DNA of 64,000 bases, taken from Psychrobacter sp. 28M-43. GTDB lineage: Bacteria; Pseudomonadota; Gammaproteobacteria; Pseudomonadales; Moraxellaceae. Made by a program: the position numbers and the translations under genes. This document shows, piece after piece, positions 9,261-30,937 of the stretch. The stretch's first letter is position 1. Each line of letters starts with the position of its first letter. The notes under the pieces are model-generated. The model was given only the letters and a program-made list of their open reading frames with translations, ran no database searches and was not told the DNA's origin. The stretch is taken from the NCBI RefSeq assembly GCF_014770435.1, contig NZ_CP061739.1, positions 1,798,001 through 1,862,000 on the forward strand. Direction: 5' to 3'.

Positions 9261-10073
9261 ATGCCGACTTCCAACCTTACCCAGATACAGTACACTCAAC
9301 TCGACACCACGACATGGTGTGTGACGGCTCAAGTGAGCGAGTCAATCAGTCATTTAGTCACTGGAAGCTTGTGGAAAAAGTCATTATGGTTGTCATCGTG
9401 TAATACGTCGTATAAAGACATCATCAAGCTCAATAGTCTAAATTGGTACTATCAGGTGGCGACAGCACCTAAACACTCAGTACCTGCTCTAGCGCGTAAA
9501 CAACGTCAGCAGCAGCGACAAGGTGTCAGGCAACTATTGCAAGAGCTGCTCAAAAAATTAGAAATAGATGACACCTTGGATGAGTCAAGCTTTCCCTATC
9601 GGCTCGTCAACAGTCAGCATTACGTATGCTTTAGCCATACAGGAGCTGGTAGTTCAAAGCAAACCACAGAATCGAATCAGACAAATTTTACGTATTTACA
9701 CAGTAAAATAGCGGTTGTTATCAGTCGTCAACGCCCTGCTGGTATCGATATAGAGGCCAATAATATTGCATGGCATGTAGTCAAGCGTTTCTACTCAGAG
9801 AGTGAGTTGACTATTTTACAGGAGCTATCTACAGATCAGCGAGAACGCACTGCCAAACTCTTGTGGCAAATAAAAGAAAGCTTTATCAAAGTCAACCAAT
9901 ATACATTAGCTCAAGGCTTGGGTATGGATTACTCTCACCTTATTCCTGGCTTGATTGAAAATAATAAAGAGATTAACGCTTCTTCCCTACTCAGTAATAT
10001 CGAGGATACGAAGCGCCAATCTGTTTACCGTATTGCCACGTTACAATCGCAGCAAACTGTCATCGTTTTTTGA
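9261..10073 (+). CDS. 4'-phosphopantetheinyl transferase, Sfp/EntD type
   Basis: Transfers the phosphopantetheine arm of CoA to a serine of carrier proteins. The superfamily motifs are present: GIDIE at residues 161-165 (Mg-binding Asp163) and WQIKESFIK at 202-210 (Glu206 and Lys210 of the W-x-x-K-E-x-x-x-K motif). FPY...NSQHYVCFSHT upstream matches the family's N-terminal half. There is a basic Gln/Arg segment at residues 79-99. The target carrier protein is not in this window; no NRPS or PKS gene is near. The start at 9261 has no good Shine-Dalgarno and could be slightly downstream. The stop codon lies inside a short imperfect tandem duplication (10065-10093). Confidence 0.85.
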   Translation: MPTSNLTQIQYTQLDTTTWCVTAQVSESISHLVTGSLWKKSLWLSSCNTSYKDIIKLNSLNWYYQVATAPKHSVPALARKQRQQQRQGVRQLLQELLKKLEIDDTLDESSFPYRLVNSQHYVCFSHTGAGSSKQTTESNQTNFTYLHSKIAVVISRQRPAGIDIEANNIAWHVVKRFYSESELTILQELSTDQRERTAKLLWQIKESFIKVNQYTLAQGLGMDYSHLIPGLIENNKEINASSLLSNIEDTKRQSVYRIATLQSQQTVIVF

Positions 10074-10141
10074 GCAAGGTTTTCTGAGCAAAGTTCAACC
10101 CTGATTTCAGAATATCTTTCAATACTTTATCTTAAGCATAA

Positions 10142-10169
10142 AAAAACGACCCTAAAAAGGATCGTTTTT
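10142..10169 (+). terminator. Terminator after the phosphopantetheinyl transferase
   Basis: AAAAACGACCC / GGATCGTTTTT stem with one mismatch and a TAAAAA loop. The same 28 bases occur again at 13201-13228. Confidence 0.8.
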
Positions 10170-10727
10170 CTGATGAATTATGCTCAACTCTAATTATCTT
10201 AACCTCTTAATAATAAAAAATTTTAAATATATGTCGTTTAAATATATGTCGACTGATTATAAGAATGGAGAAACTATAGTTTTATATGCCACTTCTCCCT
10301 ACTTATCTTTTATTATTAAAGAAGTAAAACTCTATCACTCATATATAATAATTCGTTAGTAGCTTAGAATATATTAAAGATGTAATAATTCAAGAGCAGC
10401 AACAAATACATCATATCTATAGCACTTAGTTAAAAATCCTCATCCCCAAACGTACAATCCTTATTATTAGAAAGTACAACCTTACTACAATACATAAATA
10501 CTCATATCCAACGTCCTAATTCTTATGGTATCCAAAGAATCATTTAGTAGCATTTATCAAAGTAATTTATATATTTTCAATAAAAAAATTTTAGTAACTT
10601 AACTCTACACAAATAATATGCAAGACTATTTAGTAACCTCAATTCTCATTAAAGTCAATTCTGTATACATACACTTACATTATATATATAATTATAGAAT
10701 TTTGTCATGCTTTGTTAGGGAATAAAC
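10170..10727. other. Long AT-rich spacer before the acyltransferase gene
   Basis: About 560 bp, more AT-rich than the surrounding genes. It contains a perfect 15-bp tandem duplication (TTTAAATATATGTCG twice, 10222-10251). I found no open frame with a ribosome binding site, no repeat termini and no clear promoter. It probably came with, or was remodelled around, the acyltransferase gene. Confidence 0.45.
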
Positions 10728-12656
10728 ATGAGGTTTAGAAAGGATATTAATGGCCTTAGAGCACTTGCCGTCATCGCTGTTGTGCTATTCCACTTTAACG
10801 CATCTTGGATGCCTGGTGGCTTTGCTGGGGTTGATGTCTTTTTTGTGATCTCAGGTTTTTTAATGACTGGGATTATATTTAGAGGGATGGAGCAAGATAA
10901 TTTCTCAGTTCTTAATTTTTATGTTGCTCGAGCCAATAGAATCATTCCTGCATTAGCACTACTTTGCTTGGCATTATTGTTCTTTGGCTGGTTTTATCTC
11001 ACGCCACTAGAATATAAGGCACTAGGCAAACATGCTGCGAGTAGTGTGGGCTTCTTATCTAATTTTGTTTATTGGAAAGAAGCTGGTTACTTTGATGCAG
11101 CGTCTCATGAAAAATGGTTATTACATACTTGGTCATTATCGGTAGAATGGCAGTTTTATGTCATCTACCCGTTAGTGCTTCTAGCTTTACGTAGATTTTT
11201 ATCTATAAAGAAGCTGAAATTACTACTCATCGTTGGTACTGTACTTGGCTTTATATTCTCTGCTATTGCAACCTATAAATCACCTAATGCAGCTTATTAT
11301 CTATTCCCTACTAGAGCATGGGAGATGATGATTGGCGGGGTTGCTTATCTCTATCCTTTTGCACTACAAGAAAACAGAAAGAAGCTCGTAGAGTGGACAG
11401 GTCTAATATTGGTTATTGCCTCTTACTTCTTGATATCAGCAGAAAATTTGTGGCCAGGTTATTTAGCCATCTTCCCAGTACTAGGTTCATTCCTTATTAT
11501 TCAAGCGCAACGTAATGATAGCGCAATTACAGGCAATATCATCTTTCAGAAAATAGGAACATGGTCTTACTCTATCTACTTATGGCATTGGCCTTTCGTG
11601 GTAGCTATCTATACCTTTTACCTGTCTAATTATTACATTTATATAGGGATGGTACTGTCAGTATTGCTTGGCTTCTTAAGTTATAAGTATGTTGAGAAAA
11701 TTAATTTCTCAAGGAGCTTTCCAACTCTCTTAAATTACTTGAAATGTAAGCCTATATACATTGCTGGAATTGTAGGGGTGCTAGGAAGTGGCCTCTTCGT
11801 AACAAATGGTTTTGAACAACACTATTCTGATAATGTTCTATTAGCTTCCAACGAAGCAAATAATAAAAACCCTTATAATTGTATGGCCGATAATAAGTTT
11901 CCTTGCTACATAGGAAAAAAAGATAATATCAAAGCTATTGTTGTTGGAGATAGTCATGCAGATGCACTGACTACTTCACTAGCTAGTGTGTATGATTTGA
12001 AAACAGAGGGAATAGTTGCGCTGACTAAAGCCTCTTGCCCGTTCATATTAAATATACAAGTTTTTGAAGAAGAGAAATGTCTAGAAGAAAATATTAAAAG
12101 AATGGAGTTTCTAAAAAATAATTATGCAAGCGTCCCTATTTTTTGGGTAGCAAGAACAGGAGTCTATATATATGGGCAATTAGACCCAAGCAGAATCAAA
12201 AACATTCAAGATACACAACCATTGATATACTTCACTGAAAAATATACTAGCGTCGAACCTGCATTACTTGGAGAGCTAGAAAAGAACCTTAATACTACAA
12301 TTAGAGAGGCTGCTAAAAACAGGCCTATATATCTAGTCTTACCAACACCAGAAATGACATTTAACGTACCTAGAGTAGTTAGTAAAGAGCTACTACTAGG
12401 GAATATAAACAGCGAGCCATTCAGATCAGAAGAACTATACCTTAAAAGAAACGAACCAATAATTGAGATAATCAAGAAAGTTGGAGCTAGCAATAATGTG
12501 AGAGTTTTAGACCCCACCGATTATTTATGTGACAGCGGAAAATGTAACTCTTTATACAAAGGTAGACCGATATATTATGATGGTGACCATATGAGTGAAT
12601 ACGGTAACAAATTATTAACCCCTATGTTCGAAAGTGCGCTTTTAGTAAAAAAATGA
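10728..12656 (+). CDS. O-acyltransferase, AT3 membrane domain plus C-terminal SGNH domain
   Basis: OafA-type integral-membrane enzyme that moves acetyl groups to surface polysaccharide or lipopolysaccharide. The N-terminus is the classic AT3 opening (RKDINGLRALAVIAVVLFHF, His22) followed by FAGVDVFFVISGFLM and about ten membrane spans to residue ~360. The periplasmic C-terminal part is an SGNH hydrolase-like domain with VVGDSHADAL near residue 409 and the DGDHMSEYG block (Asp/His) near 616. AGGGA precedes the ATG. Base composition is AT-rich, especially in the second half, unlike its neighbours. It stands alone with no other polysaccharide genes, which suggests transfer. Substrate unknown. 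Confidence 0.9.
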   Translation: MRFRKDINGLRALAVIAVVLFHFNASWMPGGFAGVDVFFVISGFLMTGIIFRGMEQDNFSVLNFYVARANRIIPALALLCLALLFFGWFYLTPLEYKALGKHAASSVGFLSNFVYWKEAGYFDAASHEKWLLHTWSLSVEWQFYVIYPLVLLALRRFLSIKKLKLLLIVGTVLGFIFSAIATYKSPNAAYYLFPTRAWEMMIGGVAYLYPFALQENRKKLVEWTGLILVIASYFLISAENLWPGYLAIFPVLGSFLIIQAQRNDSAITGNIIFQKIGTWSYSIYLWHWPFVVAIYTFYLSNYYIYIGMVLSVLLGFLSYKYVEKINFSRSFPTLLNYLKCKPIYIAGIVGVLGSGLFVTNGFEQHYSDNVLLASNEANNKNPYNCMADNKFPCYIGKKDNIKAIVVGDSHADALTTSLASVYDLKTEGIVALTKASCPFILNIQVFEEEKCLEENIKRMEFLKNNYASVPIFWVARTGVYIYGQLDPSRIKNIQDTQPLIYFTEKYTSVEPALLGELEKNLNTTIREAAKNRPIYLVLPTPEMTFNVPRVVSKELLLGNINSEPFRSEELYLKRNEPIIEIIKKVGASNNVRVLDPTDYLCDSGKCNSLYKGRPIYYDGDHMSEYGNKLLTPMFESALLVKK

Positions 12657-12663
12657 ACTATTA

Positions 12664-12697
12664 AAAAAGGACGCTATTAAAAAATAGCTTCCTTTTT
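12664..12697 (+). terminator. Terminator after the acyltransferase
   Basis: AAAAAGGA.GCTATT paired with AATAGC.TCCTTTTT (one mismatch), about 14 bp of stem, ending in a T-run. Confidence 0.75.
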
Positions 12698-12713
12698 ATT
12701 GCTCATCATTTAG

Positions 12714-12923
12714 TTATTGACTTTTTAGTAGTAGGAAATTGATATATTTTTTAACCTCCCTACTGACTGCCTCGAACATCGAATTAAGGGCTAGGTTATA
12801 GCAGATAGATTCAGCTGTGGTAGTAACCAGGTGCACGTTTGCACGTAATAAGGCGCCTCTTAGGTAGCATAACGTATTATACAAGTCACCCCCAATAGGT
12901 ATACCTGCGCTACTTATAAATTG
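12714..12923 (-). pseudogene. Gene remnant, possibly the C-terminus of an NADPH-dependent FMN reductase
   Basis: A 69-codon open stretch on the minus strand that begins just after an in-frame TAG, has no usable start, and ends in TAA. Its composition looks protein-coding, with helix-like segments GGDLYNTLCYLRGALLRAN and a C-terminal EVKKYINF. The pattern 'G-G-x..-L-R-x-x-L-x-x-x-N-V-H' followed by a short acidic helix recalls the end of NADPH-dependent FMN/quinone reductases, but this is by eye only. Upstream sequence on the same strand is full of stops. Best read as the decayed 3' end of a gene lost during rearrangement of this segment. Confidence 0.35.
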
Positions 12924-13200
12924 CTATCTAAAGCCGTATATTCAAATGGAAGAAGCCATCTATATAGAATAAAAACTATTGATGACTTAGTGAATAATAT
13001 TATATAGCAGCATAGAAACTTTTAATTACTTAAAAACTTAAAAGTTACTTAGGCAGCTTTCATTGCCGATAAAACTATGAATAATTAGACCTACCTATGG
13101 TTATCAATAGGCATAGGTAGGCTAGTTACTGCTACAATAACAGATATACAAACATCACTTAATAATAAAAATATTATTAATTATGAATTTAATACACAAA

Positions 13201-13228
13201 AAAAACGACCCTAAAAAGGATCGTTTTT
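13201..13228 (-). terminator. Terminator of the outer-membrane protein gene (second copy of the 10142 sequence)
   Basis: Identical in stem and loop to 10142-10169. Read on the minus strand it ends in a run of eight T residues just after the barrel-protein gene. Confidence 0.8.
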
Positions 13229-13267
13229 TTGTTTTCTACTAATAACAGTCTTTAAACTGTAATTAGC

Positions 13268-14110
13268 TTAGAAACGGTAAGTTGCACCAACTTTAACGAT
13301 TGGGAACCATTCAAGATAATCTTTATCTTCTAGCTCTTGCTCAGCAGCTGAAGCAGCAGCTGCTGCTGTAACTGCATTTGTGCCATTACCTGTAGCACGA
13401 ACAGTAGCATCTGTTTTACCCATGTAAGCTGCACCAAGCTCACCAAATAAACCAAAATTATTAGTAATGTTAGGACGGAAACCAACAGTTAGATAAGGAG
13501 CTAATTTGTTACGATGTTCGATAGTACCTTCTAAAGTACCAACTTCATCTGCATCATAATCAACATCGTCAATTCTAAAGTTACCATCTTCAGCGTTTGC
13601 ACGTACATCAATATCGTTGTCAGGAACAATAATACCAGCACCCATTGTAAACCAGTTGCCAGTAGGACGTAACTGTACACCTAAGTACGGGTTGCTGAAG
13701 TCAGCATCTACATCATAGTTTACATCATCTACATCAAAATCACCGCCGAAAAGGTCAGCAGCATCGCCACCTGCCCAACCAGCTTGCAATTCAGTTTTTT
13801 CATTAAGTGACCAACCGATGTTAGCACCATAACCTAAAGTACCAACTTCAGCACTAACAGATGCTGGGTTAATGGCTGTTTGGAACAAAGTTTTAGTGCC
13901 ACCAAGTACCGCACCAGTAGTGTTGCTTACTACACCAGCGTCAGCATTGTATGCATAAGAAGCAGGTTCTGCTTGATAAGCAACTGCAACTGGCTCAGCT
14001 TCATATGCAACTGCAGCATTGTTATCAACAACAATAACTGGATCAGCAGCTAATGCAGCAGTTGATGCTAGAACAGCAGCAGAGATTGCCGTCAATTTAA
14101 TCAATTTCAT
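13268..14110 (-). CDS. Outer-membrane beta-barrel protein
   Basis: Signal peptide MKLIKLTAISAAVLASTAALA, then a mature protein with an imperfect N-terminal repeat (AVAYEAEP / AVAYQAEP / SYAYNAD). This is followed by alternating amphipathic strands and long Asp-rich loops (FDVDDVNYDVDADF, RIDDVDYDADEV). It ends in a terminal aromatic strand ...KVGATYRF, the C-terminal Phe recognised by the BAM complex. Start chosen at 14110 because AGGAG lies eight bases upstream; an in-frame ATG at 14146 has no such signal. No porin or OmpA periplasmic motif is recognisable, so function (channel, adhesin or W/OmpW-like) is unassigned. Monocistronic with its own terminator. Confidence 0.85.
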   Translation of the reverse strand: MKLIKLTAISAAVLASTAALAADPVIVVDNNAAVAYEAEPVAVAYQAEPASYAYNADAGVVSNTTGAVLGGTKTLFQTAINPASVSAEVGTLGYGANIGWSLNEKTELQAGWAGGDAADLFGGDFDVDDVNYDVDADFSNPYLGVQLRPTGNWFTMGAGIIVPDNDIDVRANAEDGNFRIDDVDYDADEVGTLEGTIEHRNKLAPYLTVGFRPNITNNFGLFGELGAAYMGKTDATVRATGNGTNAVTAAAAASAAEQELEDKDYLEWFPIVKVGATYRF

Positions 14111-26342: not shown

Positions 26343-27623
26343 TCACTTCGTACATACTGTGGTTTTAATCATTCCAAAACTGGCTATTAATAACGCCAGT
26401 ACCTGCACAAACAATAACAACCATACGGTAAGAGACCACTGCCCTCGCGCATAAGCTATGCCACCCAGCCATGCCCCTAGCGTACCGCCTGTATAGTAGC
26501 CCATATAATATAGACCCGAAGCCAATGAGCGACCCTTTTTCACATTGACCGCGATATAGCTGATGGTCGCCGACTGCGTGATAAATACACCAGACGACAT
26601 AATGGCTAGTCCTATAATCACCCCCCATAATGGCGTGACCAGAGTCAATAACACCCCAACCATAGACACGACGATAGCCACCCGTACTGTACGCGCCGAT
26701 CCAAATCGGCGTAGCAATGTCGTCGATAATGGCGTGATAATAACACCAAGCAAATATACTGCAAAAATATTGGCGAGCGCACCAGTACCAAGCTCATAAG
26801 GCTTATCCGCCAAATGTAAATTGATAAAAGTGAAGCAGCCTACAAGGGAGAACAGCACGCAAGCGCCAAGCAGACATGCTGTTACCACATAGCGATTGGT
26901 GACATGCTCACCCAGCGTCTGTATCGCTGAGCGAAAATTGGGGTTTGCCACAAAGTGACGAGACGATGGTAGCATCTTGCCGACCCATATTGCCCCCAGT
27001 AGCGTCATCGCCGTCATCACATAGTAACCATGACGCCAGCCTATCAGCTCATGCAAATGCCCTAACAAGAACCGACCCATAAAGCCGCCAAGCACGCATC
27101 CTGACACATAAAAGGACATCAGCTCAGTCATTGCCCGGCCCTCAAACTCCTCACCAATATAGGCAATCGTCACCACCGTAATACCCGGTACAGAAAGTCC
27201 CTGCATAAAACGCCAAATGCCGACCCATTCAATGCTCGAGCTCTGGGCAATAAGCGCTGTCGGTATCGCTAAAAACAATAAAGCACCAACGATAAACGAC
27301 TTGCGCCCGACTGCATCTGAGAGCATGCCTAGAAATGGTGACATAATCGCAATGGCTAACACAGTGGCACCAACGATCATGCCAGCCTGCACTTCGGTCG
27401 CAGCAAAGTCCACCATCATGACCGGTAGCACCGCTTGGATAGAGTACACTTGCAAAAAAGCAAACATACCTATCAGGCCAATTGTAAGCTTCAATATCCA
27501 CGACGTTGAATGATTGGAGGGAGCTGGTGGCACAGCTGTTATATCTTGGATCTGATCTTTAGAATTATTCACAGAGGATCTGACTATATTGGTTATACCA
27601 TGACTGTAAATAATAACCGTCAC
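26343..27623 (-). CDS. MFS transporter (YnfM-like, 12 membrane spans)
   Basis: Major facilitator with about 45 polar N-terminal residues and then twelve predicted membrane helices. The loop 2-3 motif GMLSDAVGRKSFIVG is present, and the second half begins near residue 240. The pattern of short loops and 'GG.xGR' (VLGGFMGR) resembles the YnfM/arabinose-efflux-like group. Substrate unknown. The frame opens with a GTG at 27623 and there is no ATG before the first helix, so the true start may be another GTG some 17 codons in. Divergent from the PETase-like gene. Confidence 0.82.
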   Translation of the reverse strand: MTVIIYSHGITNIVRSSVNNSKDQIQDITAVPPAPSNHSTSWILKLTIGLIGMFAFLQVYSIQAVLPVMMVDFAATEVQAGMIVGATVLAIAIMSPFLGMLSDAVGRKSFIVGALLFLAIPTALIAQSSSIEWVGIWRFMQGLSVPGITVVTIAYIGEEFEGRAMTELMSFYVSGCVLGGFMGRFLLGHLHELIGWRHGYYVMTAMTLLGAIWVGKMLPSSRHFVANPNFRSAIQTLGEHVTNRYVVTACLLGACVLFSLVGCFTFINLHLADKPYELGTGALANIFAVYLLGVIITPLSTTLLRRFGSARTVRVAIVVSMVGVLLTLVTPLWGVIIGLAIMSSGVFITQSATISYIAVNVKKGRSLASGLYYMGYYTGGTLGAWLGGIAYARGQWSLTVWLLLFVQVLALLIASFGMIKTTVCTK

Positions 27624-28057
27624 TGGCGTGGATGATAGAGAGGAACAACGGTGATTTATGCTAAATGTATAAGCAAAAGCATCGTTATTAAACGATAAAT
27701 GTTCATCATAATGACAAGCCGATTATGGTAGCACACTCACCAATATACTCAGGTTTAAAAGTGTTATTAACGCTTGATAGATTCTTTATTTGGATTCGAG
27801 ATTATCGTAGAAAAACTTGACTAGGAATCACATTTCGACTTGAGACGGTGAAGACAGTTTTCGACTCACGAGGTCAAGATCAAAGTTACGTTTATTGCAC
27901 ATACAGGATAGTATGGTTAGATGCTATTTGCGCACTTGTTAAGTACTTAACTGCTTTAACGATTGATGACGTTGACAGTTAACAATCACTACCTACGTTT
28001 ATCTTTTCTAACCCATAGACATGCACGACCACACAACCTTTTAAAATACAATTTACT
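27624..28057. other. Divergent regulatory region, MFS transporter / PETase-like hydrolase
   Basis: Contains two inverted repeats: ATCGTT-ATTA-AACGAT (27681-27696) and a perfect 14-bp palindrome GTTAAGTACTTAAC (27938-27951). A perfect -35 hexamer TTGACA at 27972-27977 is followed 16 bp on only by the weak TACGTT. The palindrome just upstream of this -35 is a plausible operator for the hydrolase gene. No gene seen. Confidence 0.4.
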
Positions 28058-29002
28058 ATGACGAAAAATATATTGCTTTCACAACTTATTATCGCGATGA
28101 GTATATTGGTTTTCTCTACAATGGCTGTAGCAGAAATAACTGTCTCCGAGACTAGCGTTAAAAGCCTCAACCCAGTTGGATCATCACTCGACGCTACAAA
28201 CTCACTAGCGGCAGTAGACTGTATAAAGGATGACGCTATTACTGCTACTGAGCTCACTAAAACACGTGATAATGGTCCGTTTTCTGTAAAGTCCAAGCAC
28301 GTAAGTCGCCAATCAGCCAATGGCTTTGGTGGCGGTACCATACACTATCCAACAGATGCTGCTAGCTGTGGTCTGCTAGGTGGTATCGCGGTAGTGCCAG
28401 GTTACGTGTCTTATGAGTCTTCTATCAAATGGTGGGGGCCGCGTTTGGCCTCTTGGGGATTTGTCGTTATTACTATTAATACTAGCTCTATTTACGACAA
28501 TCCAGATAGCCGTGCTGAGCAATTGAGCGCGGCTCTCGATCATCTCCTCGCTGATGAAACAGTAGGTCATATGATCGACTCAAACCGTTTGGGCGCGATT
28601 GGCTGGTCAATGGGCGGCGGCGGTGCGCTACGATTGGCAACTGAGCGCAGTACGGTGCAAGCCATCATTGCACAAACGCCCTATCACGATACGAGCTATG
28701 GTGCGATGGATACGCCTGCTCTATTCATCGCTTGTGAAAATGACCGTATCGCCCCGAATAAAAAATACACCAATACTTTTTATCAAAAAGCTGACGGTCC
28801 AAAAATGAAGGTCGAGATTAACAACGGCAGTCATTTTTGCGCCAGCCATCGTTTTAACGAAAAGCTATTAAGTAAACCTGCTATTGCATGGATGCAGCGT
28901 TATATTAACGGTGACACACGTTTCGATAAATTCTTATGTGGCAATGAAAGCTACAAAGATGATCCTCGTATATCTGCCTACGATTACGAAGACTGTTCAT
29001 AA
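28058..29002 (+). CDS. Secreted PETase/cutinase-like polyester hydrolase
   Basis: Alpha/beta hydrolase with a Sec signal peptide (MTKNILLSQLIIAMSILVFSTMAVA) and no lipobox. From FSVKSKHVSRQSANGFGGGTIHYPT on it aligns by eye, almost without gaps, with the Ideonella PETase and Thermobifida cutinases. Features: oxyanion Tyr116 (VPGY), WWGPRLAS.GFVVITI, nucleophile Ser184 in GWSMGGGG, Asp229 in CENDRIAP, His259 in NGSHFC. Cys226/Cys261 and Cys294/Cys313 match both disulfides of the Ideonella enzyme, the first of which is absent in actinomycete cutinases. Differences: Tyr209 replaces the mobile active-site Trp; Tyr237 and Phe241 replace the small Ser/Ile pair; about 40 extra residues precede the domain, adding Cys55, and Cys104 is also extra. 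Natural substrate probably a polyester or lipid ester. Confidence 0.88.
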   Translation: MTKNILLSQLIIAMSILVFSTMAVAEITVSETSVKSLNPVGSSLDATNSLAAVDCIKDDAITATELTKTRDNGPFSVKSKHVSRQSANGFGGGTIHYPTDAASCGLLGGIAVVPGYVSYESSIKWWGPRLASWGFVVITINTSSIYDNPDSRAEQLSAALDHLLADETVGHMIDSNRLGAIGWSMGGGGALRLATERSTVQAIIAQTPYHDTSYGAMDTPALFIACENDRIAPNKKYTNTFYQKADGPKMKVEINNGSHFCASHRFNEKLLSKPAIAWMQRYINGDTRFDKFLCGNESYKDDPRISAYDYEDCS

Positions 29003-29255: not shown

Positions 29256-29311
29256 GGGTGCTACAAACAAGTAAAACGATTGAATAAATGAACGATTAAG
29301 GAGCAATGTTG

Positions 29312-30058
29312 ATGACTGATGAAATGTATGATTTGGGTGCAGGGTTTTGGAGTATTCGAGGCTCATTTATCAAAAACGGTATCCTTGATATTGGGGTTCA
29401 ATGTGCGCTCATAAGACTATCATCAGAGCGATTTATCTTTATAGATAGTTATACATTAACTGGCGATGTGCGTCAGCAAGTCATGGCATTGACTAATAAC
29501 GGTCAAAATGTCGAAGCTGTCCTCAATGTTCACCCGTTTCATACAGTACACTGTGCTCAAATGGCAAAAGATTTTCCGCAAGCGACGTTTTATGGCAGTA
29601 GCCGACATCCAAAGCAAGTACCTGAAGTCAATTGGGCAAATGATTTGGTCGAAAGCGATGCCGTTGCTGCGCGCTACCCTGAACTCCAATTCTCTATACC
29701 TCAAGGCATCCATTACATCTCACCTGACGAGACGGTTCATGCCAGCTCATTATTGGTCTATCATCCTGCTAGCCAAAGCATCTATATCGATGATACCTTT
29801 GAGATACCCCCTTCTAAGTTAATAAATGCCGTGCAGCCTAACCTAGGCTTACACCCTACTACCAAAAAGGCACTCAAAGATGAGCCAAACGCAGCGAAAC
29901 ACTATTGTAGTTGGGCTATAAATCTGGCACACGAATGGCGTGATGTTCGTCATTTTTGCGGCGCACATTCAGGCTTAGTGGTATTTGAAGAGAGTCAGTT
30001 TGAGACAGCACTTATATCAGCGATTGATTTGGCTTGCCCTGAGCTTGAGAAAGTATAA
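29312..30058 (+). CDS. MBL-fold-like protein, paralog 1
   Basis: 248-residue soluble protein, strongly similar to the next gene. It has the layout of a metallo-beta-lactamase fold: an opening strand pair (FWSIRGSF), a GV.CALIRLSS..FIFIDSYTLTG segment, then NVHPFHTVHCAQM where the metal-binding motif should be. The canonical HxHxDH is not there; only H-P-F-H...H remains, and the last His is not kept in the paralog. This resembles DUF4336-like, metal-poor members. Start at 29312, with AAGGAG eight bases before it, gives the same length as the paralog; the ATG at 29306 would be only two bases from the Shine-Dalgarno. Function unknown. Confidence 0.8.
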   Translation: MTDEMYDLGAGFWSIRGSFIKNGILDIGVQCALIRLSSERFIFIDSYTLTGDVRQQVMALTNNGQNVEAVLNVHPFHTVHCAQMAKDFPQATFYGSSRHPKQVPEVNWANDLVESDAVAARYPELQFSIPQGIHYISPDETVHASSLLVYHPASQSIYIDDTFEIPPSKLINAVQPNLGLHPTTKKALKDEPNAAKHYCSWAINLAHEWRDVRHFCGAHSGLVVFEESQFETALISAIDLACPELEKV

Positions 30059-30190: not shown

Positions 30191-30937
30191 ATGACTGATC
30201 ACATTCATGATTTAGGCGCAGGATTTTGGAACATACGCGGAACATTCCGTCTCGGTGGCGTACTAAATATCGGCACTCAATGCTCGCTAGTCAAGCTATC
30301 ATCAGGAAAATTTATCTTTTTGGACAGTTACGCCCTAACGGGTGATGTTCGAGATGAGATTATGGCATTGACCAATAATGGTCAAGATGTCGAAGCTGTC
30401 CTCAACGTACATCCGTTTCATACAGTCAGCTGTGCTCAAATGGCCAAAGACTTCCCGCAAGCGACGTTTTATGGCAGTAGCCGTCACCATAAAAAAGTAC
30501 CAGAAATCAATTGGGCAGATGATTTGGTAGAAAGTGACGCAGTCGCTGCACGCTATCCTGAGCTTAAGTTTTCAATGTCAGAGGGCATTTACTATATATC
30601 GCCCAATGAGATGATTCATGCAGGTTCTTTATTGGCTTATCATCCTGCCAGTCAAAGCTTGCACGTAGATGATACTTTTATGAGTCCACCATCGAAGTTA
30701 TTAGAAACTGTATTACCTGAGCTAATACTGCACCCTACGACCAAAAAAGCACTGAAAAACGAGCCAAACGCTGGTGCGCAATACTGCGACTGGGCGACCA
30801 ATTTGGCTCATGAATGGCGTGACGTACGCAATTTCTGCGCTGCGCATTCTTATCTTGTTCAGTTCAAAGAAGGTGGGTTTGAGAAAGCACTGGTGAAAGC
30901 CGTTAAGAAAGCACGTCCAAAACTAGAAAACGCCTAA
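30191..30937 (+). CDS. MBL-fold-like protein, paralog 2
   Basis: Tandem duplicate of the gene before it, 132 bp downstream, the same 248-residue length and mostly identical (for example ALTNNGQ.VEAVLNVHPFHT and AQMAKDFPQATFYGSSRH). In this copy the third His of the putative metal site is Ser (HPFHTVSC). The C-terminal LAHEWRDVRNFCAAHS block with Trp, His and Cys is shared by both and may be the functional centre. GAGGAAAATTATAA precedes the ATG. A strong hairpin follows. No known partner genes; the neighbours are a secreted hydrolase and an NsrR-like regulator. Confidence 0.8.
   Translation: MTDHIHDLGAGFWNIRGTFRLGGVLNIGTQCSLVKLSSGKFIFLDSYALTGDVRDEIMALTNNGQDVEAVLNVHPFHTVSCAQMAKDFPQATFYGSSRHHKKVPEINWADDLVESDAVAARYPELKFSMSEGIYYISPNEMIHAGSLLAYHPASQSLHVDDTFMSPPSKLLETVLPELILHPTTKKALKNEPNAGAQYCDWATNLAHEWRDVRNFCAAHSYLVQFKEGGFEKALVKAVKKARPKLENA

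Follow-up and report, generated by a model that had tools for sequence, protein, structure and literature searches.

The question raised by this locus is whether a gene for a secreted hydrolase of the PETase family, carried by Psychrobacter sp. 28M-43, encodes an enzyme of a hybrid type, possibly with a third disulfide, as a first-pass annotation made from the letters alone had proposed, or a member of a lineage that is already characterised. The gene lies in a stretch of 64,000 nucleotides, hereafter the window, and its features are listed in Table 1 with those of its neighbours. We consider it highly probable that the product is the Psychrobacter ortholog of Mors1 (Lip1), an Antarctic enzyme that degrades PET, and that it is a Sec-exported serine hydrolase predicted to cleave polyesters or acyl esters and to hold three disulfides.

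Table 1. Coordinates in the window of the PETase-family gene, of selected codons, and of conserved neighbouring genes.
Feature	Coordinates	Strand	Basis
MFS transporter, conserved divergent upstream neighbour	26343..27623	-	ORF list, flanks
PETase-family (PF12740) secreted alpha/beta hydrolase, highly probable Mors1/Lip1 ortholog, 314 aa	28058..29002	+	Residues, Pfam, 8spk alignment
Sec signal peptide, residues 1-25, likely cleavage between AVA and E (25/26)	28058..28132	+	By eye, inference
N-terminal arm, residues 26-54, length and sequence variable across the genus	28133..28219	+	51-protein alignment
Cys55 codon, first half of putative third disulfide, aligns with Mors1 Cys60	28220..28222	+	Alignment
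Cys104 codon, second half of putative third disulfide, aligns with Mors1 Cys109	28367..28369	+	Alignment
Ser184 codon, catalytic, in GWSMGGGG; triad partners Asp229 and His259	28607..28609	+	Alignment
Tyr209 codon, replaces the wobbling Trp, aligns with Mors1 Tyr214	28682..28684	+	Alignment
Tandem paralogous ORF 1, 250 aa, conserved downstream neighbour	29306-30058	+	ORF list, flanks
Tandem paralogous ORF 2, 248 aa, conserved downstream neighbour	30191-30937	+	ORF list, flanks

The gene, its family and its closest relatives

In the ORF list of the window, the reading frame is intact from ATG to TAA, and the same register on the opposite strand is full of stops. A 120-residue ORF on the other strand (27979-28341) overlaps the start of the gene, with nothing gene-like about it. 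The genome of origin (3.1 Mb, one contig) contained this single PETase match at E ≤ 1e-3. The gene is under purifying selection, with dN/dS values of 0.08-0.17 against seven hand-picked relatives. Promoter-like and terminator-like sites did not exceed the frequency seen in shuffled sequences, and tRNA and Rfam scans over the window returned no matches. A script found all 13 residues named in the first-pass annotation at their positions (Cys55, 104, 226, 261, 294 and 313, Tyr116, Ser184, Asp229, His259, Tyr209, Tyr237, and Phe241), and the signal peptide that it had called is supported, by eye, by a hydrophobic run ahead of the cleavage site.

Membership in the PETase family was borne out far beyond chance. 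In a Pfam scan, the protein matched the PETase model PF12740 with 283.6 bits (E 1.8e-84, cut-off 28), and its best solved structure was PDB 8spk, 'Lipase 1' (E 1.4e-140), with 199 of 261 residues identical (76%) in a gap-free alignment. The match to 8spk begins at residue 53, and the comparison with Mors1 covers residue 53 onward; we take 8spk to be Mors1, and its sequence agrees with the residue numbers that a review gives for Mors1. The NCBIfam BHET-hydrolase model gave 232.5 bits, far under its own cut-off of 520. Side matches to Peptidase_S9 (24.4 bits) and DLH (23.4 bits), barely above their cut-offs in the same Pfam scan, are what could be quoted for an unrelated alpha/beta hydrolase, a dienelactone hydrolase or a peptidase S9, that resembles PETases by chance. 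The PETase score in that scan, the identity to Mors1, and the tree placement described below refute this explanation, to which we give practically no weight.

Ser184, Asp229, and His259 align with the triads of IsPETase, TfCut2, and Mors1, and the fold and triad geometry predicted for the protein rest on this homology. The backbone of Tyr116 and Met185 presumably provides the oxyanion hole, as in IsPETase. Both cysteine pairs of the type II PETases, a classification that is reportedly that of Joo et al. 2018, are present, namely Cys226/261 at the active site and Cys294/313 at the C-terminus. Type II enzymes are further expected to have three loop residues more than type I; the loop from His259 to Trp278 counts 20 residues here and in Mors1, 21 in IsPETase, and 18 in TfCut2. 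Because this loop is only two residues longer than in type I, we filed the protein with Mors1 and not with the canonical type II enzymes.

A 74-row tree united Mors1 with all 19 Psychrobacter rows used in one clade (100/100, stem length 1.0), and the window protein thus grouped with Mors1 apart from other PETases, a placement that the first-pass annotation had proposed as a check. Mors1 itself was nested within this clade as the sister of locus L043 (100/93), in keeping with a cited title that names the strain Psychrobacter sp. TA144 (reference list in PMC11547725). The nearest row outside the clade was PET6 (98/76), on a long branch and with an unsure position. The tree tool warned of several long branches, IsPETase, TfCut2, and PET6 among them, and the deep joins are therefore unsure; the Mors1 clade is well supported.

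Mors1, whose source is given as Moraxella sp. TA144, is 45% identical to IsPETase, cleared a PCL suspension best at 25 °C, removed 1.98% of the weight of an amorphous PET film within 6 days at that temperature, and melted at 52 °C, as summarised in a review (PMC11509169). The same review describes a 1.6 Å crystal with Tyr214 and Asp153 in subsite I, a subsite II likened to type IIa, an active-site disulfide (Cys231-Cys266), and Cys60-Cys109 as a third disulfide that is reported as confirmed (PMC11509169). In the window protein, Tyr209, Asn148, Cys226-Cys261, and Cys55-Cys104 correspond to these positions at a constant offset of 5. The hydrolysis by Mors1 of PET, the activity of EC 3.1.1.101, and of PCL, with its optimum near 25 °C (PMC11509169), supports by analogy the earlier suggestion of a cold-adapted polyesterase, and we infer that the window protein would have the same activity and the same bonds. 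After Sec export, the Ser184-His259-Asp229 triad would cleave ester bonds in an open cleft that would take polyesters and acyl chains. Cys226-Cys261 would stabilise the protein beside the active site and Cys294-Cys313 at the C-terminus, and Cys55-Cys104 would tie the N-terminal arm to the core.

Cleft residues and the probable third disulfide

The residues of the cleft were compared in two sets, an alignment of 51 distinct Psychrobacter proteins from 70 loci, the window protein included, and 51 outside rows drawn from 56 loci (L095-L150) after exclusion of three Psychrobacter loci and of the short rows L096 and L138. One of the genus proteins, L020, is truncated by a stop codon, and position 259 and those after it are missing. 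Tyr209 was found in 51/51 Psychrobacter proteins, Tyr237 in 46/51, and Phe241 in 50/51; position 148 was variable (D in 24, N in 21, R in 3, and H, K, and Q in one each of the 51). Among the 51 outside rows, all had His237 and Phe241, 46 had Trp209 and five Tyr209, and Gln148 was present in 47. Tyr209 is thus uncommon outside the genus, not unique to it, and Tyr237 was seen only inside the clade. The replacement of the flexible Trp by Tyr209 was correctly called, and it aligns with Mors1 Tyr214. Of the neighbouring residues that had been likened to those of cutinases, Phe241 is indeed shared with them, whereas Tyr237 is not, with His in every outside row.

These counts bear on the proposal of a hybrid enzyme, part IsPETase-type (type II) and part cutinase-type (type I). 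A loop of 20 residues, intermediate between the 18 of TfCut2 and the 21 of IsPETase, and a Phe241 common to the window protein and TfCut2 could be read in this way. However, since all outside rows have Phe241, including rows with the active-site disulfide, this residue is no sign of a hybrid, and Tyr237 is not cutinase-like. In the tree, the protein stands with Mors1, with PET6 nearest outside, and away from the actinobacterial rows and TfCut2. We regard a hybrid as very unlikely; by tree and residues, the protein is an ordinary Mors1-clade member. Nor are its extra cysteines unusual, as had been thought; they and Tyr209 occur in every Psychrobacter protein of the alignment and are normal for this clade.

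The proposed disulfide between Cys55 and Cys104 is very probably correct, because the residue numbers match those of Mors1 at the constant offset, and in the ortholog the bond is already known: the pair aligns with Cys60-Cys109, which the review gives as crystal-confirmed (PMC11509169). Both cysteines were present in 51/51 distinct Psychrobacter proteins. In all 51 outside rows, the segment that separates the N-terminal arm from the position of Cys226 was free of cysteines. Two close-spaced cysteines in the arm were found in 17/51 outside rows. In PET6, the third disulfide is a local one in this arm, Cys27-Cys30 (PMC9679969), and its cysteines lie three apart in the aligned chain. According to the review, Mors1 too has the third bond seen in PET6 (PMC11509169), but the positions differ, and the PET6 bond and the Mors1-type staple are hence two different bonds.

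The third disulfide appears to have originated on the Psychrobacter branch. All 19 Psychrobacter rows in the tree lack the RGPxP[ST]-like stretch of the arm and have in its place a stretch led by Cys55 (consensus CIADSxITAxxL). Compared with most gammaproteobacterial rows of the 74-row alignment, they also carry an insertion of two residues, which contains Cys104. L070 branches off first in the clade; it combines the staple with Tyr209, yet it keeps His237, Gln148, and an HSCANSGY loop, and this one sequence, on which the order rests, suggests that the staple preceded the later changes of the cleft. Taken together, we think it probable that the Psychrobacter/Mors1 branch invented its own long-range third disulfide once, along with the loss of the arm motif and the insertion, separately from the bond of PET6 and before the later cleft changes. 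Among the titles listed in a literature search, none was on a clade-specific third bond; PMC11219463 uses the words 'third disulfide', and we do not claim the distinction between the PET6 and Mors1 bonds as unpublished.

Distribution, chromosomal slot and natural role

The enzyme had been attributed to cold-adapted Moraxellaceae. This attribution is too broad: at E ≤ 1e-20, 50/299 Moraxellaceae genomes matched, all of them from Psychrobacter, one genus of 16. At E ≤ 1e-3, 51/105 Psychrobacter genomes gave a match, one of which (G078, E 8.3e-4, 32%) was too weak to be counted, leaving 50/105 with the genome of origin included. A class-wide draw gave matches in 3/369 genomes at E ≤ 1e-20, again including the genome of origin. 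Among the matches listed in the scan of named genomes (80 of 536 confirmed loci), the 27 with at least 59% identity were all from Psychrobacter, and the remaining 53 loci had at most 53%. One genome (G019) holds two PETase genes, L070 (C11) and L043 (C12), the former with the more canonical cleft residues. In another of the 50 (G049), the copy (L020/L064) is interrupted by stop codons, with 84% and 94% identity over its two matched stretches; at 84% completeness, this genome may contain an assembly error here.

The surroundings of the gene were surveyed in 40 flanks from 39 genomes. In 37/40 flanks, the gene was preceded by a divergently oriented MFS gene and followed by one or more copies of the tandem ORF; the exceptions were L043, L062, and L070. 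Tandem ORFs lay near the slot in 38/40. At L062 (G016), the PETase gene is off its usual slot, with 0/9 of the searched neighbour genes within 12 kb. In 20 of the 54 PETase-less genomes, about 1.5 kb beside the MFS gene was read. The MFS gene was present in 20/20; a tandem ORF followed it at 286-1166 bases in nine, and the other 11 had none within about 1.5 kb. A tblastn search beside the MFS gene of these genomes gave no PETase remnant (best E 0.20). The tree built from 57 MFS proteins, of which 37 neighbour a PETase and 20 do not, implied seven changes between presence and absence, at least three of them forced by well-supported branches. The simplest reading is repeated loss of the PETase from one ancestral place, with transfer into the same slot as the alternative.

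At E ≤ 1e-3, neither tandem ORF matched any family in Pfam or NCBIfam. The first gave only Sulfotransfer_3 (E 0.15); the second matched no PDB entry at E ≤ 1 and gave only DUF4336, below threshold (E 0.039). By eye, one might guess at a degenerate metallo-beta-lactamase-like fold. A pathway shared by the PETase and its neighbours was also considered and rejected, support for it being weak, as the tandem ORF follows the MFS gene in 9/20 PETase-less genomes. Elsewhere in the window, positions 10001-14000 had a GC content of 0.34-0.36 against 0.39-0.48 in the rest, and this segment holds a long ORF (10728-12656, + strand) that is acyltransferase-like by eye.

As to the natural substrate, known terephthalate dioxygenase belongs to family PF00848 (ring-hydroxylating dioxygenase alpha subunit), for which the genome of origin had no match, with matches in 4/14 control genomes; growth on PET by the terephthalate dioxygenase route is therefore unlikely. 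The tannase/MHETase family PF07519 matched neither in this genome nor in any control genome, and this negative carries no weight. On the PF00848 result, PET is an unlikely natural substrate, and a lipid or a natural polyester is a likely one. Somewhat in favour with us is the reading that the protein acts mainly as a lipase or esterase outside the cell, supplying it with fatty acids, perhaps via an adjoining acyl-CoA ligase, with polyester hydrolysis as a side activity. This reading concerns only the natural substrate and is compatible with orthology to Mors1. Besides the missing PF00848 match, it is favoured by the acyl-CoA and propionate-CoA ligase genes that adjoin the slot and by the UniProt annotation of P19833 (Moraxella sp. 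TA144) as a triacylglycerol lipase, as cited in PMC12224614. However, since all 20 of the PETase-less genomes examined have the MFS gene and 13 of them have the ligase beside it, the linkage of PETase and ligase is weak evidence for a pathway.

Significance and comparison with known systems

The gene points to about 50 natural relatives of Mors1 within one genus, which vary in the residue at subsite position 148 and in their N-terminal arms. Because of the divergence of the sequences and the shared slot, our results suggest that Mors1 belongs to an old enzyme of the Psychrobacter lineage, which most carriers keep at the same chromosomal location and which has been lost many times, and that the Mors1-type enzyme is not a recent answer to plastic. 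Two third disulfides that had been described as one are now separated, which matters when such a bond is moved between PETases.

Within the family, TfCut2 (4cg1) shares the triad and the C-terminal cysteine pair with the window protein but lacks the active-site and third pairs, and it has His/Phe at 237/241. IsPETase (6qgc) shares the triad and both the C-terminal and the active-site pairs; it lacks the third pair and has Ser/Ile at 237/241. PET6 from Vibrio gazogenes (PDB 7z6b), 52% identical over the compared part, has Trp and His where the window protein has Tyr209 and Tyr237.

Closer relatives are already in print. The protein of Psychrobacter nivimaris LAMA 639 (L075) is 94% identical to that of the window and likewise 314 residues long, and the genome paper of this strain lists a 314-aa poly(ethylene terephthalate) hydrolase with 69.5% to P19833 (PMC8857425). 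Nothing on the window protein came from passages of PMC12886402 and PMC12442448 or from terms searched in PMC12976661. The gene is a sound but ordinary find, since the suspected third disulfide had already been seen in Mors1. Mors1/Lip1 (P19833, 8spk) agrees with the window protein in the triad, the six cysteines, the Tyr in place of the wobbling Trp, and the Tyr/Phe pair (237/241 here). The two differ in subsite I, where Asp153 of Mors1 is replaced by Asn148, and for this reason the rates of hydrolysis may differ from those of Mors1.
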